A stretch of DNA of 64,000 nt from Melampsora larici-populina 98AG31. Taxonomy: Eukaryota; Basidiomycota; Pucciniomycetes; Pucciniales; Melampsoraceae. Positions 1 through 37,700 of the stretch are shown piece after piece. Made by a program: the position numbers and the translations under genes. Below the pieces are notes generated by a model, which was not told the DNA's origin, made no database searches, and saw only the letters and a program-made list of their open reading frames with translations. Within the stretch, counting starts at the first letter, position 1. The number at the start of each line of letters is the position of its first letter. The stretch is from assembly GCF_000204055.1 (NCBI RefSeq), contig NW_006768792.1:1-64000 (forward strand), read 5' to 3'.

Positions 1-180
1 CAGAGTATGCTAAATCGAATGATAGGCCGTTTTCTGAGAAGGTGGATTCAGGTAATTTAAAACTTTTAGTGACGCTATGAGTTTTGTTGAAGAGGGATAC
101 TGGTGAATCTTCTTTGTCGGTTAGATCAATCACTCGGTCTATACCCGTAGGACCTTGCGTGGTGTCGCCTGATTTCTCGT
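1..180 (-). pseudogene. downstream half of a host gene split by the KDZ transposon
   Basis: Read on the minus strand, this stretch is open through to the window edge and encodes a Ser/Thr/Asp-rich segment containing DRVIDLTDKEDSP. It continues, in the same frame, the coding sequence that stops at the other side of the transposon (14699-15366) if one copy of the 8-bp target duplication is removed. The gene therefore ran right to left before insertion and was cut inside an exon. No conserved domain was recognised. It could be an ordinary low-complexity nuclear or regulatory protein, or itself a repeat-associated gene. The 3' end lies outside the window. Confidence 0.6.
173..180. repeat. 8-bp target-site duplication, left copy
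   Basis: TTTCTCGT lies directly outside the left TIR, which starts CACCTGTGTG. The identical octamer follows the right TIR at 14699-14706. An 8-bp duplication fits KDZ elements (also hAT and some MULEs). Confidence 0.92.
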
Positions 181-581
181 CACCTGTGTGTACCCATACC
201 TTCGCATTCTATTGGTTTATACAGGACTCTCTATGGTCGCATGGGGTCCGAAAATTGGCGTGTAGATGTGGTTAGATGCTGTAGAGGCATCTAATGTGAA
301 CTCCGACTTTGGACAAGTCCAAAGTCACCACACCACACCACACCAACACACCACCCCACCTCACCACACCAAATCTGCCCCACAGCGCACTATACCCCAC
401 CACACCTCACCATCACACCTCACCACCTCACCACTCCTACACCACTAACACCCCACCACCCCACCCTACACCATCACACCACCTCACCACACCACCCTAC
501 ACCACCCTACACCACACCACACCACACCAATTACCCCACACCACACCTCACCACTGCTAGTCGACTTGCCTTAAACCTAAC
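181..581 (+). repeat. left terminal inverted repeat of the KDZ element
   Basis: It begins CACCTGTGTGTACCCATACC and matches the reverse complement of 14263-14698 with few differences and a length change in the simple-sequence part. The outer ~145 bp is unique sequence that includes a small palindrome (GACTTTGGACAAGTCCAAAGTC, around 308-329). The inner ~230 bp (about 330-560) is degenerate CACCACACC/CACCTCACC repeat, almost without G on the top strand and nearly without CpG. Homology ends near a shared CCTTAAACCTAAC motif. Confidence 0.93.
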
Positions 582-694
582 GCCAAATCCGCCTACTACA
601 ACTCTGCCAAGCCCAACCAAGGACTTCTTCTCCCACCTCATTACTACCGCCTTCGCATTTGACATCATCATCTTACTCTAATCAATTGCACAAC
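581..694. other. leader between left TIR and zinc-finger gene
   Basis: About 115 bp between the inner TIR edge and the first ATG of the plus-strand gene. It presumably holds promoter and 5' UTR; no clear core-promoter motif was seen. Confidence 0.3.
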
Positions 695-1952
695 ATGTCC
701 ACAATAAATAATGACAATATACCGGATATAGACATGCCAGCACCACCGGAAATCTGCCTTCCAGGAACTCGAGACCCTTTGGATCCCAAAACTCGAGAAC
801 ACATGGATCGATATGTCAAATCGTTTGCTGCACCACATGGTTATTTGATATCCGTTGGGAAGTCATACGTTTCAAAGGGTAGATGTACATATCGCTGCCA
901 TCGAGGCGGCTTTTGCAAGACTTCAAACGACACCGCCAAGACAAGCAAGTCATTGAAGATCCAATGTCCATTCGAGCTCAAGGCCAAGCTGGACACCGAA
1001 CATCGATATTGGACGCTCTCCCACATCAACACAAGCCACAATCATCCACCTAACTTTGAGCTTGAGTATATACCCCCTGATGACAAGAACTCGACCGGTG
1101 TCGACATAGACACCTTTCTGTACTCTCTCTCACAACGTCTCCAATTGCTCGATTCAACTACTCAAATGACCATTGTTGAAGAGATCAACCACATCCTTGA
1201 TAAACCACACTCGACACATGCTTCTGTTATCAGACCATCTGTAAGTCTTTATCCCCTTGTTTGTTTCTCCAGAACGTAGACTGACCCACCGACACCTCTC
1301 TTTCACCTGAACGACAGTCATCCAAAAAGATAGCAGAGTCTCAAGATACCAACACAACGATATTGCTCAACTTGGCCAAAGTGGATACCCTCCATGAACA
1401 ATCTCATGTTGCGCAAAAAGTGAGCTTTCTATCAATCGTAGTGTAGATGATTCATAATGATACTCATTATGAATCATTATTTGCTTCATCTAGACGCATA
1501 GTGTTCCTCATGAAAACATAAATGTTGAAATACTTCAACCATCCTTTCCAGTCGATCATTCTACAAAAACTCACACTACAGCCACCAATTCAGCACCAAC
1601 CAGTGTTCTCAACAATACGCATGAAACTGATGATGGCACTCCATCAGTTCCACCACTTCCTCCGATATCATCTGGACCTTCAGTACTCCACATACAACCA
1701 CCTTCCACCAGACCCGACCAAGCCGAACCATCTGGGACTTCAGTACTCAACATACAAGCACCTCCCACCGGAACCGACAATACCAAAGTCACTCACAATA
1801 ATCACAAAGTCAGCCATAACACCAAGAAGAATACTTCTAGCACAAATACCTGCAGCAGCGTCAACGAGCGTCCTCGCACACGTAAACAACTACGTGAGCA
1901 GGTACCAGAATGTTCCAAGCCTATAACCCGCACAAATAAGTCAAAGCGTTGA
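695..1952 (+). CDS. FAR1/GCM1-type zinc-finger protein, element-encoded accessory
   Basis: Three exons (695-1240, 1318-1419, 1494-1952) join in phase to about 368 residues. Residues ~45-125 carry the pattern of the WRKY-GCM1/FAR1 zinc-binding fold: an RYVKSFAAPHGY-like start, a CTYRC pair, an IQCPF cysteine, a conserved W and a terminal HNH. In MULE transposases and FAR1-like factors this fold binds DNA. No transposase catalytic domain follows; the C-terminal half is Ser/Thr/Pro-rich and ends in a basic KSKR tail. The protein starts just inside the left TIR and is transcribed inward, opposite to the other genes. A role in recognising the TIR or regulating the element is inferred. It could also be a captured fragment of a MULE. 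Confidence 0.75.
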
Positions 1953-2375
1953 CAGTATTGAAATTACTCTTAAGCTTAGTTATCGAACATTTGGAAGCTT
2001 TTTTTCAAGTTAGAGGCTTATTATAAACGTTTTTGAAAGTTAGAAAGTTAGATGAATGTAATAAACCTTCCTAAGTTTATGATTTATAAACTTGCTTTAC
2101 TCCTAAGACTATCAAAAAGTGTCTGGACCAAGATTGATCAAATCGATCTGTATGTAGAAACAACCACTCCAATTATTCCATGATGAGCAATATCATATTT
2201 TAATTGTTGTATGAATAGACATCAGAGCCACCTGTACCTGAGCAAGCCAAAAACTATTGAGTTAAGTGTTCAATTCAATTTGTTTCTTCTCAGTCAGGCC
2301 AGATATATTATTTCAAAGTTTGATATAATAAGCCTAAAATTACAATTCTATTTTAGTCGGTCTTACAATTACATT
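1953..2375. other. convergent intergenic spacer
   Basis: AT-rich DNA between the stop codons of the zinc-finger gene (+) and the KDZ transposase gene (-). It probably holds the 3' UTRs of both. Nothing else seen. Confidence 0.4.
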
Positions 2376-5300
2376 TTAAAATATGTCTTCATCATCTAAT
2401 TCATGTTCAAGATCCTCTTCATCTTCCTCAGCCTCAGCAATCAAACTCGGAAGATTTGTTATTGCTGCCCATTCCATCGCGCTCTTTAAACGCATCTCCT
2501 CCCATCCGATGAGAAGGGCCGCATCCATATTTCCACTGTTGGAAAAGTACGTCGATGTACTTTCCAGCATGCTCCTCAAGCCATTGTTCCATATCATCCA
2601 TAACCGGCCAGAAGAACGGACTAGGCCCAAGTATATGAGCCTAGCCTCGTCCAGCTCATTGCCTGATTTAGGGAATTCCAAACAGTCAGTCTTTCAGTCT
2701 GACAAAGTCAAAGTACATAAACAACTCTCAATGAAGAGCCTCACCTTCGTCCACCTCCCATTTGGCCTTGATCAAGTTGACACGATCTTGATATTCAATT
2801 GACCATTTCATTAGCTGTCGAATTTCCCGTCCGAAGCGGCGAAGCTCTTCGTCGGCGCCTCTTTTGAGTAGAAAAGCCCTGATCCCAGCCCTGGTAGCTC
2901 GATTGGTTGCCCATGGTTCATTAGGATGTGTCAAACCTCCTATATCCCAAAAAGGGTCGGTTATGGCCATTGAGTCCATTTCCTCGAATGTAGGATCCGG
3001 GATTGGGTTGGCTGGAGCGTGTTTTCGATTGTAGTTTGATGCATGTCGATGGTAAGTCTGATACTTCTTCCTTAAGAGTGTTCTTTTCTTGATTCTACGC
3101 TTGTTGAATTGCGCCTGGCTTGTAGTTCCTAGATTCATAATATTGCATCTTCATTTCGATCATCACTTTCATGATGATGGAAATGAAAGGTCACACACCT
3201 GTATTTAAAGCTGCTTGTCTTTGATTTTCAATAACCCCCACCTTGGCCTCGTAAAGCTTGGATTTTGACAGGCGCATTGTCGTTAGAAGCTTGGCTTGGT
3301 CATCTGGGAATCAAATATCAGTTTGATGGTTCCATAGGTTCAGATCAGTTACATACAACTTACCCGACGTCCCTGTCAGTCGTAAGAACTCGTCAGATCC
3401 TAATTCATCTGCCAAGTCCTGCACTTTCTGCTCGAGGGCTATCAATGACCGAGGCAGATCAAGGAGCTCCGCTCGCTCAGCACCGGTCCGCATCCGAGGC
3501 CGTTTTGCAGATATGTCTTCCAGTCTGCCCCTGCATTACAGCTCTCGAGTCAGCTCGGTGCAGTCAAGTGAGAAGAGATAATCACAACCCCTACCGAGCC
3601 TCCAACACGTCCTCTTCGAGCTCTATTAACACCAGAATTTGCTCCCGTTTATCAGCAGCGGTCTCACTGATGATTCGGGCCTGCATTTCTTTTTGTCTAG
3701 CCCACTGGTGTTTGATGTACTCCAGGTTGAAAGTTGGGTTTTTTGACTCAATATTAGCCAAATCTTTCTGCGCTTCCTCAGCCCGTTTCAGGACAACATT
3801 GAACCGACTGGCCATTGAGTGAACTGTACGGGTATATAGATGATGTGCAAATTAATTGTTTATATTCACAATTAACTTCAAAATTTGAAACCCTTACCTG
3901 CGTTCGCTCGCAACATTTGATTGTGATGTAAAGCTCGTGTGTTGATGTTGATCAACCTATGTTGACTGGTGGCATATCTGTTTGGACGGACGAGAGGTGA
4001 CAGGAAGGACCATATCCTTTCCAAACCCTCACCATCTGATAAACCCCATCCTTGGTTCAATCGCGGGTTGTAGTCCAATTGGCATCCCCATTCATGAACA
4101 TATGCATGAAAGACGCTAGTGCCAAACTTAAGCTGGTTCAGTTCGCGTTCAATTGCAAACAAGTCGCGCTGGTCAAAGAAGAATTACATTAGCTGGATGG
4201 ACAAAATTAAGGGTCTTCTTCTGAGCTTACATTTATTATACCTTTTTCTATGTTGCAGCCTATGTCATATAGGATTCCAACCTTGTCGGCCTGACCCTTC
4301 CGATCTGCGTCAGAAACTACTTTCAAAATCCATTCAATCAATGCCAGAGCAAAGTATGATCTGTTGATGAAATTCATTTGTTAGTCAGATACCCTACACT
4401 ATATTGGTGGTCAACAAACACACTTTTCTCCACTTTGTATGATATTGATAAATCGTAGACAATGATCATGCCTACATGCCATGCCCAATAATCCAGTATC
4501 ATCGGATCCGCCCCAGTGGGACTTACCTCGAACATCGTTGGCCGCGGTGTGTTGCTCGCTACAAGGATGCTATATCAAATATATATAGTCAGAATCTTGT
4601 TTTCATGGTGACTAGTCAGCATCCATGACTAACCATATCTATATCATCTTCATCATTTTCATCTTCAACATTCGCACCCACTCTCAAAGCCATCTGTTCC
4701 CACTCGTTCTTCGGAAGGAAAAGTTCGGGAGTTGGGGGAAAATACCCAGGAATTGGTGCACTTGCAGCCTTGTGCCTTCGATGCTGAAAGTTTCCATCAA
4801 GACACACAATTATATCCGGTTCGCAAGGCTCAGTTGGCGCCACAGGTGGTCCAAAACACCGCGGACAGTTTTCAGCAAGTCGTTCTAATTCTGAGAGCTC
4901 CAGCAAATCCATCTCTTTATAACGCACCATGGTCACAAGGGTTTGATAGGCGTCGTAAGCTGCACTGAAAGGAGTGCGCCAGTCGCGAGGCTGTGATAGT
5001 TTGAGTTAGCGTTCAGTGGTTAATAACCATTTGTAATAGGTCACTGCTCACCTGTTGAGTCTTTGAGGTTAAGATTAAAGGATTGTGAGCATCAAGATAC
5101 TCGTCTAAAGCCCGGACAAATGCCTGCGTACGGACCGCGCCGTGTTTCCATATGCAATGAAATAGACGAAGCAACCGAGTTGAAAAAGCCGTCCTTGGAT
5201 GAACGGGTGACCCTCCCATGTATCCCATCTCGACCAATCGGACTAGATCTGATTGGCAATCACAAAAATCGATTTGGACCTTTTTGCGTGCTGTGAGCAT

Positions 5301-5883
5301 GAGACAATAAGTGGATGACTGATGAGCGTTGAATTTGTTTTTTTATCATGAGGAGTCAAGATATATTCAGGTACTTACTCAATATGTCCACCAGGTCCAC
5401 CCAAGCACATCTCTTGCGACTTTGATGACATATACATCTTCTTCGTTTTTGGTCAGAGTCCCACTTCAAGACATCACCCCATTCTGATGTTAATTGACGC
5501 CCACGCAAGAAAGATGGTAGCATGTTTTCACATTGCTTCATCCATCGTTTTGTCTTTTCTAATCGTTTTGCATCATATTGAGCCCGAGCTATTTGCGCCA
5601 GAAGTTCATACTCGTCCTCTTCCAATTCGGGATGACGATGTTCTGGCGGATGATTATCATGGACTTCGTCTTCCTCGTCCATTGGAATATTGAACCAATC
5701 TGCTTGATCATCAACAGGGTCCTGCTTCTTCGCAACGTTCGCCTGAAACAATGCTTGGGACGCTTTGCCTGCTTGAGCTCGATTTTTGGCCTGCTGTGCA
5801 ATAAAAGCTTCCTGCACAGGCGTGGCCGGCTTGTTCTTCCTGCGAAGTCTGTTCAAACGGCGAGCGTAAGGTGTGGGAGCCAT
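2376..5883 (-). CDS. KDZ (Kyakuja-Dileera-Zisupton) transposase
   Basis: Eleven exons assemble in phase: 5883-5379, 5290-5052, 4990-4634, 4569-4424, 4360-4231, 4168-3898, 3823-3595, 3530-3364, 3303-3199, 3128-2745 and 2662-2376. The product is about 939 aa. The N-terminal part has a cysteine cluster typical of KDZ-associated CxC domains (RRRCICH, then VQIDFCDCQSDL, residues ~155-190). The core then shows CPRCFGP and CLDGNFQHRRH (Asp ~313), the HPCSEQHTAANDVRG and GMACRHDH motifs, ILYDIGCN (Asp ~448) and WGLSDGEGLERIW (Glu ~506/509). These fit the expected acidic triad of an RNase H-fold transposase. The acidic tail ends EDEEDLEHELDDEDIF. No internal stop was found, so the enzyme may be functional. 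It would act in the nucleus on the element's TIRs. Confidence 0.93.
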
Positions 5884-8800
5884 CAGTATGAAATGAGAGT
5901 GTTACAAATGCATAAGATATTTGACGTGGAGAGTAAATTTCTTGAGTATGGCATGACACCTCTAAGTTAAATTCACTCACCGCACATGTCACCGACATCT
6001 TTCACATATCTGATTACCCGGTTTAGGTGTGAACTGGAACTTCTGGGATATTTGCAAAGGTTCTCTTTGATCAGCATAATTGTGAGATGAGTCAATCATA
6101 TTTTTGGAAATTAGATTAATTAGAATACTGACTAACAACACCATTTTTTATCGCCACACCATTTCTTATCTATTCCATCCCGAACTCAAACAGTGGTTAT
6201 AAATCATAAAACTTGTTATATAAATGTATATCTGGAATTGATTATCTGGAATTGTTTAAATTGATAAAATATATTGATCCTGAACTCGAACAATGATATA
6301 TGTTGATGATTAAATTGATAAAATATATTGATCCTGAACTCGAACAATGATATATCTTGAAGATTAAAATGATAAAATATCTTGATCCTGAACTCGAACA
6401 ATGATATATCTTGAAGATTAAATTGATAAAATATCTTGATCCTGAACTCGAACAATGATATATCTTGATGATTAAATTGATAAAATATCTTGATCCTGAA
6501 CTTGAACAATGATATATCTTGTATGATTAATTGATTATATATGATGATCCTGAACTCGAATATATATATATCTAGAATTGATTATCTAGAATTGAGTAAA
6601 TTATTATATATCATGATTATATTGGAATGATTCGCTCAAATGAAAAGGTGAATGATTGTATGTCATAAAACTAGGGATAAATTTTCGTTGTTTTATCTTG
6701 ATTTGGTTCGGTTCCAAAAAGAAAACGAGGTTAGGTGGAAATTCATGATGCCAAATTGAAATTGAAGTGAATCGGTCTCGTGGTGGAGGTGATATCATTT
6801 CAGTGAGATCATTCCTCGACTCGGTTGCTTCTGGATTCCCAAGTTCGCTGAGAGATAATTGCCAAGTGAAGTGAATCGGTTTGGTGGTGGTGGCGAGATC
6901 ATTTCAGTGATATCATTCCTTGACTCGTTTGGTTCGCGAGAACACTCGCAGTTTAGTCGAGGAGAATGATTCAACAACGCAACCCACAAGGAAGGCAGTA
7001 CTCAGGTGAATTAACAACGTTAGCGATGCGGCGATAGCTTGTGTTTGGTACTCTGGATGCAAGAACTTTGTAAGTCACACGAGGACTTCATGTCGACGAA
7101 CTCTGAGCTGTACCACACAGGATCTTATCGCCGCTTCCCACATGGCAATTCAATTTAATGCTATTTATGCTCACTCACCGACCAAAGTTTCATGATGTTT
7201 CACTGCATTTAAATATTTTCATCATATGTTTTGTATCATTGAGTATTTTCGGCGACGTACATACAATATTAAACAATGAAGATCCAATAGTGAATGACAC
7301 CAGCTTTCAAAGGTTCTGATAGATTTAATAAATTCGAAGTCTTGAATTCCTATGGCATCCATACATATAAATAATGCTCGAAATGAAACTGCTTGATTCG
7401 ACTAAAGTCCCATTTTGGTGAGCTGTTTGAGTAACATATTTTATATAGCCAAATATAAAAGATGTTCCATTGTGACTTCAGCTAAATCCGCTCGACTGAC
7501 AGTTATATTGTATTTTTGATGCTCTTGAAGCAAATGTAAGATGAGGATATTCGCCATCTTGGCACCATGCAATTGGTGTAGCAAGATGAACATGAAAAGA
7601 TCTTTGCATGTTTGGATGCTATTAATATCTACTGACTTTAGTGGGAATTAGAGTTTGACCCAAAATGACCCACCTGCAGCCACATTCTTTCATGATCACC
7701 AAAGATTCTTGATGTTTCACTGTAATTGATCTTTTTGCATTATTTATTTAATGTTGGAGAGTGACTTGCATTTATATTAGAAGTACTGTGAGTATTACTA
7801 TATAATTGAAATGATCACCAGACTTAAGAGATATAATGGTGAATGTCAAAGCTCCCATCATTTCCTTTAATGGGGTGCGTGGTGATTATGAAAAATACAT
7901 CATGAACAATTTTTCCTCTTACCATTGCTTTATGATTCCCAAATGATGTCAAATACTAATGATGAGCATGTTGCATCACTCAAATTGGATATCAATGATT
8001 TCAGCCTGTTATCAATCAAGTAAACTTGTATTGTGATACAAGAATAAAATAAACTATCTGAATGAGTCAAATAAAGTATGCAGTCTTCTTCCTAGTCAAA
8101 ATAACAACGCTAACATCAGTTTTATAGGAAGTTTGTGCAATGTGTAAATCTACTGGCACTCAATAAACTTTGCAGTTACTTACTAGACATGGCTTTTTTA
8201 CATCTTAATGAGCAGGTTGGAGAGGATTTGTTTGTGGTGGTGAAGTAGAGACTGGGTGACTTGCTCAGAAAGCGTGGGTTCATTTTGATATTGTCTCATG
8301 CATTCATACTTTTCCCCGAAAGTATAAATGTTAAATATATAAATATAATGCAGAACTTATGGTTTAAGTTCAGTCAACAGAAGACTCAGAGCTCATGGAC
8401 TTTGTGCGGTGTAGCAGCCACCGCGGAAGTTGATGTGAAAGCATTCGTCTTGGTTAGGATTTTTGGGTGGACTCTGCTCTGTGTCTCTGTTTCGCAAATC
8501 TTTGTGTTTGATTCATCATTATTCTTTTGGAAAACATGCTTCGCACCTTTGAAAAATGTGCTTTATAGTTCCTTGAGACTCTTTGGATTACACAGGTATC
8601 TTGTAGATACCTGTTGCATTGGGTATTCTTCTCACTCATTCATCGTCATTGTTTAGACTTGGTTTTTTTGGTCAGGATCTTTGGGTGGAACTCTAAAAGC
8701 TTTGTATTACAACACCTTTTTTGGAATTAGACCTTATCATATAATTGCATGTGAAGAGTGACTTGAGACAGAAATGGCTCTCTTTCTTTTGATAAACTTA

Positions 8801-9214
8801 GCGCACTCATTACCCACTTTTGTTTTATTTACAAACTACACCTTGTTCTTTCCATTATATTCACTTTTACTTTCAAAGTACCAAGACTTGAATATTATTT
8901 TTTGAAGTCTATTATTGCGTTGGTTTGTGCACCTCAGAGATATCAATAGGATAGGCGCAAACATGAAGCTAATGTTTGAATTGCTTCAAAAGAAGCTGAT
9001 CAAAGGGCCAAGATACCACAAACTAACAATTACAAAGCATCCTTAATTTTTTTTTTTCACAACGTCTGAAACATCACACATCTGAACATTGTCACATTGA
9101 AACATATCAAGCAAAGAAGGAAACATCAAAAAAGGGACAGTAAATCAACCAAACAATGACAAGTGGAACAAATGGACTAAAGTCACACCAAAGATCGTTA
9201 AGCTCAAAAAGTAA
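5884..9214. other. 3.3-kb gene-poor interior of the KDZ element
   Basis: This separates the transposase start from the dioxygenase stop. It is AT-rich and contains a 54-bp minisatellite (6261-6530), two diverged copies of a ~90-bp segment with GAAGTGAATCGGT (about 6760-6835 and 6870-6945), and weak similarity between ~7180-7330 and ~7690-7860 (shared TTGATGTTTCACTG-type stretches). The only long open frame (8261-8656, +) has no recognisable product and no supported splicing. The upstream ~300 bp of 5884-6200 probably holds the transposase promoter. Confidence 0.45.
6261..6530 (+). repeat. 54-bp minisatellite, 5 copies
   Basis: The unit starts TTGATAAAATATMTTGATCC and includes GAACTCGAACAATGATATAT. 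Copies start near 6261, 6315, 6369, 6423 and 6477 with a few substitutions each. Because the unit is a multiple of three, both strands show spurious open frames. Confidence 0.9.
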
Positions 9215-11635
9215 TTACTGTAAGGACACAGCCGCAGTCCGAAAGGAATCTACAGTCGCTGCTGCTCCCGCTTCAGCTTCCTCTAGACTCAAGCCTGCAG
9301 CCAAACGTGCCGCTTTCGCCGCCTTGTAAATTCGCACTTCATTTCGGTGCTTATTATTGAGTCGCTTTTCTTCGGCCAAGAATATATCACAAGTCTTCTC
9401 AAGGTCAAAATTGACAGGATAAAAAGGGATCCAAAGCCTTCGATCACTGAAGACTTTGGGTTCCTGTTGCATGCCAGAGAATCGCGCTGCTCCAGCAAAT
9501 ACGTCAGCATGGCTATAGATTGCCATGCAGATCCTCTGAGGAGGCGAATCATCTGGAGTCGGGAGTCTTGTGATTCGGCCAACTCCGTGCATAAGGATGT
9601 CGAATGCTGCATGAACAGAATGACCAGGGCCGCCATGAACGGCATAGCCAAGATAGTTCAAGATAAGTTCACCGCCTCCATAGTTTTTACCGAAGAAGTT
9701 GGCAGAAGCGAACAGAGGCGCGTTGTGTCCATCGCGATGGTGATCAACCTGGATACCGAACATGGTGTGCCTACCTAGATGAATTATTGAGTGTTGTAAT
9801 AGGAAGATGGAAAGGATTTGTCACCAGTTGCACATGCTTTCAATGATGAAGAGAAGGGATCGCTCACCTATACCAAGCGGATTGACAAGATTCTTAATTG
9901 CAGCAGCTGCTGCAGGCGTGCCGTGTTTGACTATCACTTGCAATGCTTGCCTCGCTGCAGAATAAGAACTCGGGAGGAAGGCCTTGATGATGAGGCGTCC
10001 CATTTCGAGGTGCCATAGTAGCTCTGAATCAATTCGGGCTTGATCTTCGCGCTTGTATGCGTGCTCGTTACCCATTTGGATGATGGTGGGCAGGTTGTAA
10101 TGGCTGACATTGGCTTCGTCCCACTTGGAAGAAGGGTGACCCTGCCGTTTCTCTCCAAAGGCCATTGCTGTGTCTGACATGCCGGCGCTGAGATGCTAAG
10201 CAAAAAAAAGGGCATCAAAAACTTTTTAAGGGCGTCGGGTTGAATCAAGCTGGCTGCACTCACGGAGTATCGGCCATAACCAACGGCCTGAGAAGAGATT
10301 GCTCCACTGAAACCGCCAGGCACATCGAGGAAAGTCGAAGCAGCCCCACTGAGTCGAGCGCTGGCCTCATTTGAAACGGCAAATGGGCTTTGCGCGGCAG
10401 CGAGGAGGGGTGAGTTTAGATGTGTATCCAGAGTTACAGGTCCTTGGAGACGAGGAATGTCGTTAACTTCTGCATGGCCTTCCAACGCCATGCCGCCGCG
10501 CTCCTGGGTACGGATGTGTAAAAACAAATCAGCTTGGAACCAAGGTGCATTACAAAGGTGATGTAAATACCTGACCGCTTAGAGATTCTGTGAGATTGCT
10601 TATTTTGGGAGGAACACTGATAGCAACTACTCGGCCGGCGTGATCGAGAAATACTACCGCCTCGGCATGACCAACAACCTTGGGCGAAGTGGATCGCTCG
10701 ATTGCCAGATTGTTGAGGGCAGTGAGGTTTGGATAACGAAGGGCAAAGGGCTTGGTTGAGCCAGGAATAGCGTCGTAGTCGTTGAGCGTCTGTTTAATGT
10801 GGACAGCACATTCTAAGAGGCAATCTTGACGACCGGTGAGAGGTTCAAGAAGGGAGAAGTCGGCTAGAACTTGGTTGACGGAGCTTGGAATGTCACCCAA
10901 TAGTAGCGTATGGGTGTGTTGCAGAAAATAAGCAACTGCCAAATCGAAATCGACGTTGATAACCCTAGCTTTCTTGAACACTCGGTTGAGATACTCAGCC
11001 ACCATGGAACGACGATGGAAGACGCTGCGGAACAGATGAGCTGGAACGTTTGGTCGCAGGTGTTGAGGGACTTCGTGGGATCGAAGCTTTGGTTTCTGCT
11101 GCATTCCACCGCTTTTACCTGCCTTTGCCTTCTTGGCCTTAGGTTTGGTGAACTTGGTCATCTTCTTGACCGCAACAGTGGAGCTAGAGGACAAAACAGA
11201 ATATATAATAAATTTAAATGTAACATTTAAACGCGGGGATGGAGGAAAAAGGGCATTTACCTGAAGTCGATCGGCTTGTAACCTTTGAGATTCAATAGTT
11301 TGGCTGCTGTAGGTTGGACAAACTTGGTGATGTTATGGATAGCAGCGCACTCATTCGCTTTGCCAGCGGTAGACCTAGATATCTCGTAGAAATATATCAA
11401 TGCAACATACAAGGCACAGAGTCTGGGTTGAATGTGGCTCCTACCTGACATTGAGGGGCTTGTCAGCTTCTAGGTCGGACAGATCGGTCAAATCCGAATC
11501 GTTTCCAGCATTATCGTTTCCAGCATTAGTGGTCGCATTAATGGGTTGCTGATTGGTGAACGATTGCTGGGGAGAAATATGATTACGATTTGTCAGTGTT
11601 GGCTTAAAGAATGGAGAAAAACCTGCTCCATGCAA
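9215..11635 (-). CDS. TET/JBP-family 2-oxoglutarate- and Fe(II)-dependent dioxygenase
   Basis: Six exons (11635-11445, 11374-11261, 11183-10571, 10503-10264, 10195-9868, 9774-9215) join in phase to about 681 aa. The last exon holds the double-stranded beta-helix signature: HHRDGHN (iron-binding His ~508 and Asp ~510), YGGGELILNY, then MHGVGRI (distal His ~558, Arg ~562) and RICMAIYSHADVFAGAARFSG. This matches the fungal TET/JBP clade, which oxidises 5-methylcytosine (or thymine derivatives in the kinetoplastid JBP branch). A Lys-rich stretch (KKMTKFTKPKAKKAKAGK, ~residues 105-125) may serve nuclear import or DNA contact. The N-terminus contains DLTDLSDLE acidic repeats. The first exon is uncertain; a further upstream exon near 11818 is possible. 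The product may modify methylated DNA at the element or nearby. Confidence 0.93.
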
Positions 11636-12393
11636 TCAGAAACACATCCGGGTGCTGAGATTGCATACGTAATATAGCTGAGAGATCCGGCTAAGAGCTA
11701 TTATCACTGAAGCAAGTTCGGAATGAAAGGAGGGAAGAGAACGATCACGGACCTTGTGGTGTGCTATTTCATCAGATACATTGTCCGCAGGAACAGAGGA
11801 TGGGAATTGAGGATGCATGGCAGAGGCGAATGGGGTGGGTAGACGTTGGGGCGGTGCAATTAGTTGATGCAGTTGAAATGTCGGTAGGTAATGATATCGT
11901 CAAAGGGTGTTCGATCCTGTGTGTCGGTCGCAAGGGCGGTCCTTAGGTCTTGGGTTAGAGGTGGGACCGATACTCGGGTTGTGAGTGGGCTGATTGACCA
12001 ATACTTAGGTTTCATGATGAGATTGGTGTAATCTCATCATGAAACCTAGGTATCACTTGTGCCCGGACCGCGGCCGCGGGGCCAGATCACAGGACCAATA
12101 CTTGACTTTGAACAGGGCTATATAATGCAGTTTGGTTGAACACAAGGAAACTGTAGTTTTTCATATAACACAGGTTCAAAAACTGGATAATGCAGTTTGA
12201 CTGAAAGCGAGGAAAACATATTTTTGTTATGACTCATGTTGAAACTCTCTATTAAGATATGGAGGAAACACTCGTGTTGTCAAATAACTAAGGTGAAACA
12301 TAGAAGACACACATTTAAATTATTTATTGTTTGTGGTTAGATAAGCTATAACTCAAAAGGAAATGATCAATGATTATCATTGCGGCATGCTAC
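11636..12393. other. spacer between the HMG-like and TET/JBP genes
   Basis: It contains a possible extra upstream dioxygenase exon (~11752-11818, starting MHPQFPSSVPADN), the 12006-12048 hairpin, and two diverged direct repeats with ATAATGCAGTTTG (about 12120-12140 and 12185-12205). No other gene was seen. Confidence 0.4.
12006..12048. repeat. perfect 19-bp-stem hairpin
   Basis: TAGGTTTCATGATGAGATT, a GGTGT loop, then the exact complement. It lies between the HMG-like and TET/JBP genes, beyond the TET/JBP 5' end. A GC-rich palindromic patch (CCGCGGCCGCGG) follows at about 12067-12078. Confidence 0.9.
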
Positions 12394-13989
12394 TCATTCC
12401 TCCAAATTATGGGTTTCCCCTGCTAGTCTAGGATCGTCAGCCTTGACAATGAGGTATGTTTTCTCGTTGACAGCATTGATCCATGTTTCGACTTGCAGGC
12501 CTGTAAGCTTGCCAGCTGCTGCACCTCGTGAAAGCATCTCATCAGTAACCATACATCCTGGAAGACGTAGTATAGCAAGATGTATATGGCCGCGATATCG
12601 TCTGATTGCGAAAGTGACGCTGGGATTGGGAGTTTGGGGATGTGTCTCGGTTTGTGTTTGTCGACCTGTTGGAAGGTGGGCTTCTAAAAGGTGGAACAAG
12701 ATTAGGAAAGGTTAGCGGTGTGATCGTGTAGAATACACAAAGGCTCATCGTTTTCGTACCAACAAGGCCATTAAGTAGTGTAAGGAGCTCTTTTCGCTTT
12801 TCAGCTTGAACAACACGTGAGATAGGTTGTTTTTGCCCTTTCTTTGGGTTGGGTTTTGGCGGTGGTGCTTGTGTTGATTCAACCGCAAACCTTTCGAGTA
12901 AGTGAAACTCCGTCCGTGCAAAATCAAGCCAGGCTGCACACGACGACTCTTCGTCTTGATACAAAGCATGAGTAGCTTTCGATTCGGGCTTCCATGCAGA
13001 CATGAGTAGGTGGAAATGAAATCCGAATTTATCGTGAATTTTAAATAACTAAGTGAGTTTGACCTCAAGTGTGTTAGTACTTGTATAGACATGGATATTG
13101 TTAAATATAATGTACCTGTTTGACAACTTTCTTCAACTCGGCTTTGGCGACTTGTTGGAGATGTTGTGTTTTCCCGCTATGCCGGCAAAGGACTCCGTGT
13201 TTGAAGTCGCGAGCAACTGATTGGATGTTGACAAGTCGATGAAAGAGTGGCATATACTTAGTTATTTGTTCTTTGCTGAGTGGTTCGTCTTCTTGGGTTG
13301 ATACAGGAGTTACTTCCTCAGCTTCGGGTGTATCGGTATCGGCTGTATCCACAGTGGGCTCTGGTGTTTCCATACTTTGTTGACAGAGGCGTTCGAAAAT
13401 CTGCGGGTGAAACACGTCTCGTTCGTCTTGGGAGTAAGCTGTCCAGGTGCTTCCTACGAGTTCATTGCGTCGTTTAAAGCCAGTGGCTACACCTTTGGGA
13501 GGCACTGGACATATTGGTAAAGGGATTAGAATGGGATAGAATGCAAATGTATGGTGCAATAACTTACTTTTGGCTTGGGTGCTGGCTAAGCTATATGATA
13601 GGTAATTTGTATATTTGTTTGGTTCACGGGCCATTGGGCCTTCGTGTCTAAAGAAACAGATGTGTCAGTCATTGACATAGGTATTTCATGCTTGAGTGGT
13701 TTACTTACAAAGATTCGTCTAGGGTATCACGTGTGATATGATGAACAATACATAGCATCGTTTTGTCAAGATTGTATTGAGCTTGGAGTGATTGAGCTTC
13801 AAACAAGGCGATAGGTGAAGGTCGAGTGGTGGTCACATGGATACGAGATAATGTTCGATCGGCCTTTGCTTGCCCCCACTCAATGCCGAGGTGATGATAA
13901 TTTTCCATCGTGGGTCGCTCGACTGGTTGCTTATGACGCTTGGGTTGTTGTTGTAGGTTTCCGTCTTCATCGCCAGACAGGTGAGGCAT
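12394..13989 (-). CDS. HMG-box-like protein, element-encoded accessory
   Basis: Five exons (13989-13709, 13647-13568, 13504-13116, 13048-12760, 12683-12394) join in phase to about 442 aa. Residues ~98-165 resemble an HMG box: PNKYTNYLSYSLA, then RRNELVGSTWTAYSQDERDVF, with the usual W and the helix-3 acidic/aromatic spacing; this assignment is tentative. An acidic Thr/Glu-rich segment follows (PEPTVDTADTDTPEAEE), then a long domain containing HDKFGFHFHLLMSAW that I do not recognise. A basic Gln-rich N-terminus (QQQPKRHKQP) may be a nuclear signal. In-frame stops just upstream of 13989 favour that Met as the start. The gene shares the strand of TET/JBP and lies next to the right TIR. A DNA-bending role in transposition is inferred. 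Confidence 0.6.
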
Positions 13990-14262
13990 ATCGGAATCCT
14001 GACCTTCAAATTCAGAACCTTCTTCTTCATCGCTGGATCATGTTCAAATTGGTTGGTGGTTCGGTTTCTGGTCGTGCGGCGAGGACGTTTGTGATGGGTA
14101 GAAGGTGGTTGACGTCCAAACTGGCTACCTCCTCGGCCGCGATTTGGCATTGGAATAACAGATGAGTGGTGAGGTGATGATGGTGAATGAGTTGGAGGGA
14201 ATTTTGGGGCGTTGAGAAGTTTGACGAGTGAAGAAGTGAAGAAAGAGGGATCAGCTGTATGG
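13990..14262. other. leader between HMG-like gene and right TIR
   Basis: Contains a minus-strand open segment (from ATG at 14150, Arg/Gly-rich MPNRGRGGSQFGRQ) that is not in frame with the downstream exon by any GT-AG splice I could find. It is either an unassigned 5' exon or non-coding leader. Confidence 0.35.
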
Positions 14263-14698
14263 GTGTTAGGTTTAAGGCGAGTCAAATAGCGGTGGTGGTG
14301 TGGTGTGGTGTGGGGTAATTGGTGTGGTGTGGTGTGGTGTAGGGTGGTGTAGGGTGGTGTAGGGTGGTGTGGTGAGGTGGTGTGATGGTGTAGGGTGGGG
14401 TGGTGGGGTGTTAGTGGTGTAGGAGTGGTGAGGTGGTGAGGTGTGATGGTGAGGTGTGGTGGGGTGTAGTGCGCTGTGGGGCAGATTTGGTGTGGTGAGG
14501 TGGGGTGGTGTGTTGGTGTGGTGTGGTGTGGTGTTAGTGGTGTAGGGGTGGTGACTTTGGACTTGTCCAAAGTCGAAATTCACATTAGATGCCTCTACGG
14601 CATCTAACCACATCTACACGCCAATTTTCGGACCCCATGCGACCATAGAGAGTCCTGTATAGACCAATAGAATGCGAAGGTATGGGTACACACAGGTG
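14263..14698 (-). repeat. right terminal inverted repeat of the KDZ element
   Basis: Reverse complement of 181-581, ending CACACAGGTG at 14698. The internal GGTGTGGTGTGG tract is about 30 bp longer than in the left copy, as expected for slippage in simple sequence. The outer unique part differs by only a few bases. Confidence 0.93.
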
Positions 14699-14706
14699 TT
14701 TCTCGT
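14699..14706. repeat. 8-bp target-site duplication, right copy
   Basis: TTTCTCGT, identical to 173-180, immediately outside the right TIR. Confidence 0.92.
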
Positions 14707-15366
14707 TGGGTCGAGTTGGGTTGTTAGACTTTCCTTCTTTATCAACGAGATGGTGTTTCTTTTGAATTTGTGGCAGTTTTTCGGAAGTACCAAACATGTT
14801 TCTGAATTCGGCTTCCAATCGTTTCGCTGACGTATCCGTTGAGGTAGGGCCTTGTCTGTAGCCTTTCTCTACTATCAGAGTGTCTACCGCTCCGCCTTGG
14901 TTCGACTTTTCTGGATCTGACAAAAGAATTTTGTAGACTGTTTCAGTATCGGTTCGAGGTTAGACATTTTTTGTGAGGATTCGTATGTGCTCACTTTGTC
15001 CTATTTCTTTTCCTTTGTCTGCAATGTTTCCCGTAGGTTGCTTAGTTTGGTTACCCGTTTCTATAAATTAATAGAAATGTTTCGGGAATTTCATCAGTAG
15101 ACGTTCCTAATTAAAGATCTAACGAGATCTGAATTAAGTTTTGATATCAGGTGAGCAAAACATTGCTTACCTTTGCCTCTGTTGAGGTAGTTTGATATCA
15201 ACATCTGCTTGTTATATTTTCCAAAGGATCCTTGAGGTCGGGATCCGCTTGAGTCTTCACTGCTTGAGGAGCTTTGATTCCCTTGTGTCGTCCCTCCGAT
15301 GTTGTCGTTAACAGGCGTGATTGCGCTTAGCGCAGCGGTTGCATTTGCGATGATACTGTTCGACAT
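14699..15366 (-). pseudogene. upstream half of the host gene split by the KDZ transposon
   Basis: The start is taken at 15366 (MSNSIIANATAALSA). The first exon is Ser/Gly/Gln-rich and ends at a GT donor near 15173; a second exon (~15060-14994) and a third starting near 14939 (YKILLSDPEKSNQGGAV) join in phase. The third exon runs without a stop into the transposon boundary and continues in frame at 180-1. The product is polar, with no signal peptide, membrane segment or recognised domain. The insertion removes the C-terminal part, so this copy is probably null. Confidence 0.6.
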
Positions 15367-16108
15367 TTTCGTATGAATCGATGAGAATGAGTAACAACGG
15401 GGGGGGGTAGTTGACGGTGAATACGGTTTTAATAAAAAATTGGTAATAGGAATCTTAGAAGATCTAATCAAAAGATTAATAATTGATTTGTCCAGAAGTT
15501 GAATTCTTAATTTTCGATAGATGTTCTAGCAGTGAAAAAGGATTTAAGAATATAATAAGATAATATTTTTAAATAGATAAGCGGATGAGGGACAATGGTA
15601 ATTGATCTTATCTTGCTCTCTATATAATCCAGACATGTTAATCGTGAGATTAGCATGGCATTGATTCCCAGATAGTTTTTGTAACTAGTCTAGACCCTTA
15701 TTCTTATCATGGTCACAATCTCGATGAAATTATAATTGATGGTCTCGTAGGATTGGACTAGCTAAACTATTAGGATTAAAAACTGGATTATATTTTAAAG
15801 TACATTTTAAACGACATTACTCGTAGTCGTGGACACCGCCCACCTACGTCGTACCTCCTCCGGAAAACTATCATAAATCGGTCGGTGTAAAATTCTCCCA
15901 CCCGATTTAATACAAAAGTCCAAAACAATCTCACTTTCTTCTTCTCCAATCAATTCTTGACATCGTGTTGCTTCAATCTCCCCTTCAAAATGTACTGACT
16001 GTCAGTCCTCCTCCTGAAACTTAGGGATCTTGTACATCACCTTGCAAACTCACCATCAATGCTTCAAGCTTCTATAGATCTTGGTTTTGACTTATTACTC
16101 TTTCTTAG
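15367..16108. other. AT-rich intergenic region
   Basis: No gene seen. It includes a homopolymer G run (~15400), GATATT/AGATCT-rich sequence and, near 15930-16000, pyrimidine-rich DNA that looks like a promoter and 5' UTR for the SPT3-like sequence that follows. Confidence 0.4.
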
Positions 16109-30374: not shown

Positions 30375-33300
30375 TTAAGTTCCACCTTTTCTGCCACCAA
30401 AAGCCTGAATCGCTTCGTTCACCTCGGTGTACTTGTGCGCTAAAGGTACCCCTTGACGTATCCAGAGCCTCGCACCCACACAACACTCAATGGTCTTTGG
30501 CACGAGTGAAACACGATCGGATGAGCAGACATCTGCAGCAGCCAAAAATGTTCTTTCGACTGTAGCCGACCCCGCTGGAAGACTCATGTAATCTCGAGCT
30601 AGAGATGCTAACACCGGAAATGCCATACAGTTCGCCTGAAGAGATGAAGATTGTAAAACATATCAACAAATTGAGTAAAGACGTGTATGAAATCAAATGT
30701 CCACATACCTCCCACCATGGCAGAATAGCCTTGCTTTCCCGTGCGTTATCGGTGATAGCCATTGGTTGTGATCCTTTCAAATAGGCTGCAACTTCGTCTA
30801 GCTGAACTTCGGGCTCTTGAGCTTTGAAAAGCTGGAAGACACCAGTGGTTGGAATTCGTGAGTTTTCCTTGGGTGGTGCAGGTGTCTCCTTAGGAGTGGC
30901 TAATGTGACCTCTTCCTTTCGCTTGTTGAATTTGCTTCGAAATAGATTTCCTGCACGGACGGTGTGCGGATGTTGGGGTCCAAAAGCCTGTTCATAGAAT
31001 GCTAGTCGAAAGAAGGGATTGAGGAGGCTTGCCATGACCGTGGTGTCACATCGCAAAGCCTCTTCGAGATACTTGTCGACACGAGCTTGCATCGACATGA
31101 TCATAGGTAAGAGGGCATCCCCAATCTGAAGTTCCTTAGCCCGATTTGCAAGGTGAACCTTCAGCGCATAGAATTCTGGGATTACCATGGATCCTGTCGG
31201 TCCATCGCCCTCCATACGCTTGGTCAGATCGAGGAACGGCTGTTAAAAGAACTGGTTTAGAACACATGACAAGGTTAAAATGAAAGTTAGACTACTTACT
31301 TCAAGTTCGCTAGTCAATTCCTCAAGCGAGTCCCAGTCATCGGGAGTAAAGTAAATCTCATGGAAATATCCGCGCGGTTTTTTAGAAGACCTAGCTCTTT
31401 TTTTCTTGCTTCTAACACGTTCGAGGTCTTCAGCAAGAAGTTTGTTGACAACCTATAATACAAATGCAGATAAGTAATGATAGGTCAGGTGGAAGCTGTT
31501 CACCAACTGACCTTGCGTGCCTGCACTAAACGATTGAGTGAGTCGAATTCGGCGTTCCATCGAGTCGCATTATATCCTGGTATCAGCGGTAACAACTTCA
31601 AGTTTAGACTTTTTGCTTTTCGAGCGAAATGTCTTCTCCACGCCGCAGATCGAGCAACTCTGCGTGAAACAAAATTGGCCTAAAGTAACCAAAAGACATA
31701 GTCAGAAATGTAACCATGGAGGTGCAGAATGTGAGATAGGGGAGGGAGAGGATGTGATTACCTTACTAATCAGAATATTAAGCTCGTTCGCATGCTTCCT
31801 GGAAGCACTATTTTTGAAAACATCAAGATTGGAGGCTTCAGTCGAGTTAATGGGATCATCATTGTCCATTTGATCCTCCACATCTTCATCATAGTCTGGA
31901 GCACAGGCTACCAGATCTTCAACCTCTGAATCATGATCGGTTTTGTCTTCTTCTTCAGGTATGACTTCATCATCATCGTCTTCGGCTTCGATGACAATCA
32001 TGTTCTCTTGGTTTTCGTCTTCCTCCTCTTCTGCAATGACTGGCATCTTCTCAGATATCGGAAAAACCCCTAGAAGGGATTCGCGCTGTTGGTCTCGTGA
32101 GGGTGTGGAGCGTCCTAGTTCGGCCAGTCCACCTTTGACTGTGGATGAAATCTTATGCAGGAAACAGCGATGATAGTCAGTTTTCGGATCCCAGGTGTAA
32201 GATTGACCGGGAGAGGGTGTGATTTCGTCTTCGGCAATTTGGAATTGAGTGTGCATCTCCTCGCTCATGGTTATGTTATTTGATCCAGAGTCTGTGACCT
32301 GGCCTAACATGTGATAGTAGTAAAGACGATTTGGTTAGGCTCGATTGTTTAGGTAAATTGATTCAGAGAAGATGAGAGAAGAAGTTAAAAAAACCTATCT
32401 TGTAATGAAGCTTGTGCTTCTTCATGAAATGAACCAGCGGCTGAGCAAGCCATTTTCCGTTATGATGCCAAGCTATGAGTTTTAGAGTGAGGTGCCGAAC
32501 TTGATAGGTCCATTTTTCATTGATGTATGCAACCAAAACCCCTAAGAACGCATGAATGTTGTTTGCGGTTGTCCAACCGTCGTGGATGAGGGTAAATTGG
32601 CCCTGGTTGCCCTACGTAAAATAAGAGTTCAATGTTAGTAAAGGAACTAATCTTATTAACTTGATGTCGTTGTACATCAAAACTTACAACTATTTCTTTC
32701 AACACAGTGTCTTTAAATGACATATACATCCCAGCTGCCTCTCTCGCGACCCACGTGCGCCCAAAGACCTTGATGTCGCGCCGGATGTAGCGGAAGGCAA
32801 GTCGTAAGTAGTGATCTTCAATTCTGCTCCAAGGGAGCGCTCCAGCAAGAATCCAAACAGTTAGAATTTGATTGAGTGTGGTGTTGTCGAATTTTTTGGA
32901 TTCCTTCACGTCAAAAAACTCGGTCATCGAGTGCTGGTTCTTCTCATCGGCAGTCTTCTTATGCTTTTCGAAGGCTGTCGGTGGCAGGTTGCCTCCGGCG
33001 TCAATGGCCTTTTGGCGGGCTTTACATACAGGTCGAGTTCTTCCTTTCTTGCCAACGTAACCGTCTCGGTGTGACTTAAGGTTGGAATAAGAGTCAACTG
33101 AGGCTCGAGCCACAGTACCACACCATAGGCACTCATATGAAAGGGGTTTAAGTGTTCAATCCTGGTGATTCATATTTAATGTTAATAAATCGCAATAATA
33201 TTGATTTAATATTACAAAAGGAACTTACATCACCCTGCTTATAGGTAGGTTCGGCAAAGTAATCTCGAACCTCATCGTACTCCATTTCCTCTTCGGATTG

Positions 33301-34645: not shown

Positions 34646-34700
34646 GCCTTATCGACACATTGCAGAGCCATGATTCAACACACCAGAGATTCTTCGGATC

Positions 34701-37700
34701 ATGTCTCGAAGGATTTTGCATGGTTACTTGCCCGTTTTATCCCTGGTCAGAGGAAGTGTTCACCTCACCCCTTACCCTCTGAACGCAGGAGGTCAGCCAA
34801 TGTTTCCAATTTCAAGTTTTGTGATTCTCATCGCTTTCGTTATCTCTTCGATTTCATCTTTCATCTTAGGGTCTTCTCGATTGGAAATGGTCCTTCCTCA
34901 AGACATACCAGAATGTATTGAAGAACCTTTCAAGCCTCGCTTGAAGACATCCATGCTAACACAGCTCCTCTTGCGACCAGGCTTCATCAAGGTCCTTACC
35001 GGTCCACTTGATTCAATATCATATTCGTGTCTTGCTTGTTCTGAGAGCAGAACAATGCAAATGCCCTCCGTTCGAAGGCACTGTGACCTCACCAGTCACA
35101 AAGAAAATTTCAAGATATGGAAGGCGGATCGTGCTCGCAAACGTCGCAAACCTCGCAAACGTCGTAAACCACGTCACAAATCTCCCCAGGAACCTCTTCA
35201 AACCAACGCCAACCAAGACGACATGACGAATGATCAACTTGAAGATCCAATCATAGCCAGTCCCAACGCGGCATCAGAAGAAGATGATCTTGAACAGCGT
35301 CAAAATATCCTCTTCGATCTTTGGAATAAAGATCATGCATCACTCTTTGATTCACCATCAATCAGCAGCAAAGAAGATGATTCAATTGGAGATGACACCG
35401 AAACAGACAACGACGGCGAGGAATCATCCTCAGAACATTTGGATGGCAATGAAGAGGGGGTCGTGCAGGAGGACAGCAAGTCCTGGGCGCCTTTTTCAAG
35501 CTTGGAGGTTGGCTTCTGTCTTCCTTTTTTGCTTTGATTCACAGAGATCGTTTATTGATTAAATCAATGATTTATTTATTTATTGCCTTCCTCCTCCATA
35601 AGCAACTCGTTGGCTTGCTGATTCTTGGCTCAACAAGGACAACAATGTCTCTACTCCAATACGAACGAGTTCGATCGTTTGTCAAACTCCTGGGTGTAGA
35701 GCTTCCTGGATATAAGGCCCTTCAGAACTTACGTCGGAAACTCAAGAAAAACTACGGTTATGATGTCTACGAGATTGTCAGCCCTTTGGAAAGGCCTTGC
35801 TTTGGACTGAAAGTCAAGCAAATTCTAAGCCAAGTAGGCAAACTTTATCCTTTCAAAAAACTCGACATCACTAACACCTTTTGCTTTTGGATAGGAACTG
35901 GCGAACCCTTATGTCTCAGAACAACTTCAGTTCATGCCCGAATTACCTGATCCAGCAAGCAAAATCAATCGACTGGCACAATCAAAGAAATAGCGAGAGA
36001 CGCTTGATGGGGACTTACGGGTCCAGATGGTCGAATCCAACAAGATTCACTTCTATTTGTTTGAACCAGTGCAGCTGCATTCTCAAAGGATTGTTGTACC
36101 CCACTTTTTCTATCAAGTGGGCACAGATATCTTTGCCAAGTGCAGCTCTGCACATCAAACTTACCAACGGGCTCAGAACCAATTGCCAAAGATCCGTGTG
36201 GAATATGAGTCGGTGTCTTCCTTTGATTCTTTAAGTTTGTCCTCTGTCAACATCAAAGATTTTTGGAGATCTTTCACCACGATCGAAGTACGCAGGAACG
36301 TCTTGATGAAAGATCACTGTGAGGATACAATGCATGGTAATTATTTATACGCATCATTCTGTTTTCACACACATCATCCTTTCATTCCAGCTGACCATCA
36401 TCCATTCTTTTTCAGAGAATCTTGGCAGCGGAAATTTCAATGAAGTCCCTTTCACAAATCCGTGGAGAACAAAGGCTAAAGGTAGGCTCATTCGCAACTT
36501 ACCACTGGTCTTGTATTGCGACGATCTCTCTGGGAATATTTCGAAGCGTTGGAACAAGCACATCGCCTTTTATTGCACTCTAGCTGGATTACCTCCAAAA
36601 TTCTCTAATCAGGAATACAATTGTCACTTCTTGACAACATCAAACACGGCAAGTGCTTTGGAGCTGGCTGAACCTTTGATTGATGAATTAAAGTAAGCCA
36701 GTACCTGTTCATTTCACCTATACAAGAATCTGATGTTGTTTTGTTGTATTCAGTGAATTGAGTACAAATGGTTTCATGGCCTATGATCATCGGAGTGATT
36801 CGCAAGTTCTAGTCATGACCATGGTACTATGCCATCTCGGAGACTCTCCAATGCACGCTGAGGTCACGAATACAATGAACCCCACAGTGTCGCTCACTCC
36901 ATGTCGGATTTGTAAATTGAAAGTCGAAAGTATGGTGGACAAACGAGCAACAAAGTATGTTAGTGATTTTATTGGAATTGACGAAAATGGAAACAAGGTA
37001 AGATTTAATTCCATGAAAAGTATTCTGCTAGACAACTACTTACCACAAATTTACCACCTCCAGTCGTCTCTGCCTCCGCGAAGCTGGTCAGAAACAAAAT
37101 CGAATACCCGCAAGCTCTGGGAATTGGCGCAGCGTCCCGGCACCATTGGATTGTTTGACACTGAATCGGCTGAAAAGGGTGTAAAAGACACACTCAATAT
37201 GCCATTTGTTAAGAAGGTCCAAGATTGGCATTGCGATCCATCATTATCAAAAGGTGATGTTGCACAGATGTGTCGTGATCTCAGTGATCAATTTGGAGAA
37301 TGTGTCTACAATCCATTTCTTCGTTTGAAAGGTAAATCCTGTCTCTTAAGCTTCATTCTTCAAACTATGCTGACTGTGTGGTTTTGTTTTTTTGAGCAGG
37401 GTTTGATGGGCATAAAGATACTCCGGTCGAAATCTTGCATGTTATGCTTCTAGGAATAGGAAAGTATCTTCTATGTCATTGAATGCAAAACTCGTCGCCA
37501 ATTGAGAAAGAAGGAATCTGGGCTCGATGGAGATCATTCAACACTTCAGGCTTGAAGATCCCAGCGATTCAACCCAAGAGCATGATTAATCACTTCCTCA
37601 GTCTTACTGGGAAGGAATTCCGCACCGTCCTTCAAGCAGGACCATTTATTTTCTTCGAGTGTGCCATGCCAGATGAGGAACGCGAAGCTTGGAAGGCTTT

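Follow-up and report, generated by a model that had tools for sequence, protein, structure and literature searches.

The first 64,000 nucleotides of contig NW_006768792.1 (scaffold C28) of Melampsora larici-populina 98AG31, hereafter the window, contain a complete KDZ transposon of 14,518 bp (positions 181-14698), which is bounded by long terminal inverted repeats (TIRs) and a perfect 8-bp target site duplication (TSD), and which carries genes for a FAR1-type DNA-binding protein, a KDZ transposase, a predicted TET/JBP dioxygenase and a fourth protein (gene 4). With a probability of roughly two in three, this is a KDZ-type cut-and-paste transposon whose predicted TET/JBP enzyme likely oxidises 5-methylcytosine (5mC) against silencing. 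New here are a FAR1-KDZ-gene 4 core shared with other loci of the genome, the optional presence of the TET gene, and the exchange of TET genes between sister elements to which the phylogenies point.

Borders and insertion site

The complete transposon with long TIRs and a perfect 8-bp duplication that had been proposed from the sequence was borne out by its domains, its ends and an empty site (Table 1). Both TIRs, of about 400 bp, align with 393 identical positions, 11 mismatches and 33 gap columns, and their outermost 30 bases are identical. The inner part of each (326-554 and 14295-14553) is a CACCA/TGGTG-type simple repeat, and a similar repeat also follows the left ends of the related elements on scaffolds C15 and C2.

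The window starts at base 1 of scaffold C28, so that the left flank comprises just 172 bases and the duplication. When the flanks are joined at one copy of TTTCTCGT, they match C1:1629280-1629620 (one mismatch) and C20:347260-347600 (two mismatches), and two 1-base gaps lie near the scaffold start. The right flank (14699-15400) has near-identical copies at C1:1629510 (100%) and C20:347488 (99%), plus weaker partial ones. Since both target copies contain a single TTTCTCGT and no insert, the insertion is precise and presumably happened after these copies had diverged. An open frame continues across the site in C1 (window counterpart 14585-14959), so that a repeated reading frame is broken up by the element. 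The agreement between TIRs, TSD and empty site is well beyond chance. The start of the element 180 bases from a scaffold end would fit a chance row of nested fragments or an assembly artefact, but the matching TIRs, the perfect TSD, the empty site, and the same gene order and ends at other loci with TSDs of their own refute this possibility in practice and leave it a negligible probability.

Genes of the element

KDZ transposases belong to the DDE-type enzymes and have an RNase H fold, and FAR1-type domains, following their Pfam name, bind DNA. The genes of both proteins close without stops through GT-AG introns. The Pfam FAR1 profile matches at 28.9 bits (cut-off 28.1, E value 2e-6), the KDZ domain PF18758 at 187.7 bits (cut-off 26.6, E 2.9e-55), and the preceding CxC1 cysteine cluster PF18802 at 104.2 bits (cut-off 26.9, E 5e-30). 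The hidden Markov model check of the KDZ and TET/JBP families proposed in the original prediction gave a score over the cut-off for KDZ and one below it for Tet_JBP. The TET/JBP-like gene also closes, and its seven-exon model equals, letter for letter, a deposited protein (MELLADRAFT_108188). It contains the HxD...H iron triad and the downstream arginine, and these catalytic residues are kept in 13 of the 14 TET loci compared (that of the window included), the remaining locus having no letters there. Among 12 protein relatives, again including the one studied, the Tet_JBP profile matches seven (best E 8.5e-4), whereas three other families match one relative each, at E 0.07 or worse. Two further relatives match Tet_JBP at E 2.2e-4 (a protein of the second TET clade described below) and 1.2e-3, both below the cut-off. 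A search of the 98-Mb genome with the profile found two places (E 4e-4, below the cut-off), both within the list of 28 TET loci found with the protein query. On these data the TET/JBP assignment is likely, not proven.

The expectation that all four genes would close without stops held for the FAR1, KDZ and TET genes, but not for gene 4, which changes frame near 14.04 kb. From the methionine at 13989 its five exons close, giving 442 amino acids. The frame of the likely true start at 14150 stays open to 13833, and the frame of the conserved body starts only after a stop at 14040. Fourteen GT-AG intron solutions bridge both frames, none with a GTRAGT donor, and in the annotated paralogues P0014-P0017 a similar N-terminus is joined to the conserved body. 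The change could be a frame shift, a sequence error or a weak intron. A Pfam scan of gene 4 found no family, and the search for sequence relatives in the PDB gave none that was sensible. An AlphaFold model of P0014 offered two usable stretches, for which Foldseek alone returned no match at E 0.001 and VIA-align 2 only weak HMG-box-like and GTF2I-like fold matches.

Table 1. Coordinates of the C28 element and its parts (window positions) and of related elements (scaffold positions)
Feature	Position	Strand	Description
Left TSD copy	173-180		8 bp, TTTCTCGT; repeat match and empty site
Right TSD copy	14699-14706		8 bp, TTTCTCGT; repeat match and empty site
Left TIR	181-584	+	First bases CACCTGTGTGTACCC
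Right TIR	14262-14698	-	
FAR1-type DNA-binding protein gene	695-1952	+	Exons 695-1240, 1318-1419, 1494-1952; 368 aa
KDZ transposase gene	2376-5883	-	11 exons, 939 aa; CxC cluster; DGNFQ, YDIGC, SDGEGLER motifs
TET/JBP-like dioxygenase gene (MELLADRAFT_108188)	9215-11818	-	7 exons, 680 aa; H507-x-D509, H557, R575
Gene 4	12394-14150	-	442 aa in 5 exons when read from Met 13989; likely true start at 14150, in another frame
Tandem array	6256-6573		54-bp units, 5.9 copies, 93% matches; repeat analysis
C48 element	292798-304775		11,978 bp; perfect 8-bp duplication CTCCCCCA; TIRs; no TET detected
C1 element	419967-432547		12,581 bp; perfect 8-bp duplication ACCCAAGT; TIRs; no TET detected
C4 short element	4797-9216		4,420 bp; perfect 8-bp duplication ACTCGAGG; FAR1 and gene 4 matches
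C15 element	110500-150193		39,694 bp; perfect 8-bp duplication GTTACGCT on both sides; CACCTGT ends

A shared core with an optional TET gene

The genome was searched with the four proteins as queries and with the KDZ profile, and the listed matches were merged by hand into 28 TET, 157 KDZ, 58 FAR1 and 57 gene-4 places. For its query the TET list is complete (66 of 66 candidates scored), and the FAR1 list is nearly so (111 of 117); with 49 of 1055 and 150 of 555 KDZ candidates and 95 of 395 gene-4 candidates scored, further KDZ matches exist and the counts for these two genes are lower bounds. Other copies with the same gene order, which the original prediction had proposed to look for, do exist: among the listed matches the order FAR1-KDZ-gene 4, with gene 4 facing FAR1, is common to 17 loci. 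In six of them (C28, C15, C85, C13:1221k, C1:3120k and C27, the last with a fragment of 72 residues) a TET gene lies between, and in the other 11 none was detected with either of two TET queries, so that TET looks like optional cargo. The second of these queries, a TET of the second clade intended for divergent genes hidden in the TET-less loci, found none there and only two more short fragments elsewhere (C46:44392 and C29:28533). Four further loci (C2, C3, C36 and C113) have FAR1, KDZ and TET with no gene-4 match among those listed.

Within 20 kb of the 28 TET loci, listed neighbours include KDZ in 15, FAR1 in 10 and gene 4 in eight cases, against a genome background of at most 6.7%, 2.5% and 2.4%, respectively. 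In five of the eight TET loci with gene 4 nearby (C28, C13:1210k, C1:3108k, C15 and C13:81k) both genes are on the same strand and 1.1-1.6 kb apart; the spacing is 3.2 kb in C27, 11.6 kb in C85 and 13.3 kb in C9, where TET lies on the opposite side of gene 4. The KDZ and gene 4 matches of the TET-less loci C48, C1, C8, C9 and C60 leave 4.9-6.3 kb between them. At four TET-carrying loci (C1:3108k, C3, C36 and C113) KDZ shares the strand of FAR1 and is opposite to TET, unlike in the window, which constitutes a second arrangement of the core.

A CACCTGT match precedes FAR1 in 11 of the 14 loci compared, and the right side was fetched for six of these 11 (C48, C1, C4, C8, C85 and C9). The first three have defined ends and perfect duplications (Table 1). 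The short C4 element, with no KDZ or TET match among those listed, is probably a non-autonomous derivative. The large C15 element has a gap of about 6 kb within its KDZ matches and one of about 6.4 kb within those of gene 4, which points to insertions that it received later. Both inverted ends are present at C8 (12,158 bp) and C85 (27.4 kb), with no matching duplication, and C9 has an inverted repeat, but the terminal ACAGGTG was not found at its right end.

The original prediction had named, as evidence that would speak against it, other copies whose TIRs bound only some of the four genes. The outcome was mixed: such copies were found, in C48 and C1 with no detectable TET and in C4 with FAR1 and gene 4 only; they indicate that TET is optional rather than that the C28 copy fails as one unit. 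The TIRs and perfect TSDs of C48 and C1, which are among the 11 core loci with no TET detected, would also fit an enzyme that works genome-wide in trans, as a shared good that TET-less relatives obtain from TET carriers and not as a local eraser. Oxidised cytosine also occurs on retrotransposons in Coprinopsis and Laccaria, as cited by Kojima (PMC12730594), a finding that points the same way, but the same author argues from the many TET-carrying families per genome that each enzyme serves its own family (PMC12730594). We consider this shared use the strongest of the alternatives and still unlikely.

Exchange of the TET gene between sister elements

A tree of 15 KDZ proteins, from which the C13 fragment was excluded by a 30% filling rule, places those of C28, C2 and C15 in one clade with a bootstrap of 100, the C2 and C15 proteins being 80% and 75% identical to that of C28. 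The TET tree, which covers the 14 of the 28 TET loci whose DNA was fetched, separates into two clades, each on a long branch (0.83 and 0.79), with C28 in one and C15 in the other, and the identity between these two TET proteins is 39% (368 residues). Forcing both together costs 215 log units (approximately unbiased (AU) test, p 4e-109), in a pair selected on the basis of the KDZ clade, though at a time when a first TET tree had already been seen. Over 244 bases, the TET remnant of C2 shares 98.4% identity with the C15 TET. In the C13 locus, in turn, TET is 67% identical to that of C28, whereas KDZ reaches only 53% (125 residues) and gene 4 only 42% (139 columns).

The conflict between both trees, together with the C13 contrast, indicates that the TET gene has a history different from that of the rest of the element and was replaced in one of two sister lines. 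The TET module next to gene 4 was thus exchanged between the sister elements. A wider proposal, tentative and at somewhat less than even odds, is that rust KDZ transposons keep a fixed slot beside gene 4 in which TET/JBP genes from both deep clades have been swapped, lost and regained. If so, the anti-silencing enzyme would be an interchangeable counter-defence cassette that evolves independently of the transposase that mobilises it.

Proposed mechanism and alternatives

In mobilisation, the FAR1-type protein would recognise the ends of the element and the KDZ transposase would cut and join the DNA, both together moving the element. The product of gene 4 may act as an accessory DNA-binding protein. 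As an optional anti-silencing module, the TET enzyme would oxidise 5mC within transposon copies or close to them, and this oxidation would counter either silencing or methylation-linked mutation. Both 5mC oxidation and its counter-silencing effect, like the erasure of methylation at its own locus suggested in the original prediction, are predictions for this protein.

Some observations weigh against this reading, including the frame change of gene 4 and the imperfect ends at C8, C85 and C9 described above. The TET/JBP gene proposed inside the element retains its catalytic residues and its family evidence, but Tet_JBP, the only Pfam family matched by the protein, scores 13.0 bits against a cut-off of 34.9 (E about 0.05-0.06); AlphaFold2, run with 12 sequences, gave a predicted local distance difference test (pLDDT) score of 40.7 and a model unusable for a fold search or for judging the double-stranded beta-helix fold of such dioxygenases; and a sequence-profile search for solved relatives in the PDB found none that was sensible. 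Among nine loci with or without TET, the CpG content of the KDZ genes shows no difference favouring protection: observed/expected ratios are 0.85 (C28) and 0.65 (C15) with TET, 0.71 in C2 with its TET remnant, and 0.75-0.86 in six TET-less loci. Finally, with exons read singly, a host C5-methyltransferase was represented only by one short match, which covers 38 positions of the profile and scores 24.9 bits against a cut-off of 22 (E 4.8e-4).

The distance of the TET sequence from the curated profile and the single short methyltransferase match would also agree with a transposon as described whose TET/JBP-like protein acts otherwise, on thymine, on adenine or in hypermodification, and removes no 5mC. 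According to Kojima (2025, PMC12730594), enzymes of the PU type may depart from canonical TET. The retention of HxD...H...R in all 13 TET loci with letters there, out of 14 compared, argues against such a different activity, which we judge rather improbable.

The ratio of non-synonymous to synonymous substitution rates (dN/dS) between TET copies is 0.07-0.13 in six of eight pairs, one of which (C28-C13) is rough at a dS of 2.6, and the other two pairs are saturated; for KDZ it is 0.12-0.56 in four of five pairs, with one saturated. As the pairs come from different loci, these values reflect selection over the history of the family, not on the C28 copy alone. That TET is undetected in 11 of 17 core loci and has no CpG effect in KDZ genes would suit a passenger gene useless to the element, but dN/dS values of about 0.1 and the presence of TET genes of two deep clades in the same place beside gene 4 make this very unlikely.

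Transposons with their own DNA-oxidising enzyme offer a natural test of an enzymatic fight against DNA methylation. The M. larici-populina genome provides a built-in comparison, with related elements of TET clade A (C28), of TET clade B (C15) and with no detectable TET (such as C48 and C1), whose core genes are the same and whose ends are similar, and among which methylation, copy number and mutation spectra are directly comparable.

Relation to known transposons

The association of KDZ and TET/JBP genes in fungi was reportedly described by Iyer et al. in PNAS in 2014, including, as cited by Kojima, Dileera elements in Puccinia and Melampsora. Complete transposon structures around such genes were unknown before the study of Kojima (2025), as stated there (PMC12730594), which describes TET-carrying Dileera (KDZ) families in P. 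graminis, P. triticina and M. larici-populina. The kind of element found here is thus already known, with its 8-bp duplications, from this species, and the value that the original prediction placed on complete KDZ-TET/JBP copies is largely pre-empted by that paper, whose Table S1 may list the C28 copy. From its statement for rusts, the C28 element would belong to the Dileera lineage. The same source gives the 8-bp TSD for a P. graminis Dileera family, expects 8 bp for Dileera/Zisupton, and states that TET enzymes oxidise 5mC (PMC12730594).

The TET-carrying Dileera elements of rusts share with the C28 element the KDZ transposase, the TET/JBP gene and the 8-bp TSD, but the main text of PMC12730594 mentions neither FAR1 nor HMG as a partner gene, and a search for Dileera together with FAR1 found no paper in the library covered. 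The transfer of TET reported in PMC12730594 is between superfamilies, and the exchange found here extends it to sister elements in one genome. Zisupton-1_PGr (Repbase, via PMC12730594), from another species, is likened by description only, with its Dileera lineage, TET/JBP and 8-bp TSD. The TET-carrying Kyakuja elements of mushrooms (AG-type, relatives of CcTET) also combine a KDZ transposase with TET/JBP, but differ in the 7-bp TSD and the lack of TIRs in the two Laccaria families and in their TET type (PMC12730594).

Other features of the window

Between 15 and 64 kb, 10 of the 18 open reading frames of at least 180 amino acids were scanned, with no Pfam match at E 0.001. Two regions there, at 30487-33155 (minus strand) and 34674-38208 (plus strand), resemble by eye remnants of other DNA transposons; five frames scanned in them gave no Pfam match at E 0.001. 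Inside the element, the array of 54-bp units sits in the 3.3-kb stretch that separates the KDZ and TET genes, a possible regulatory region.

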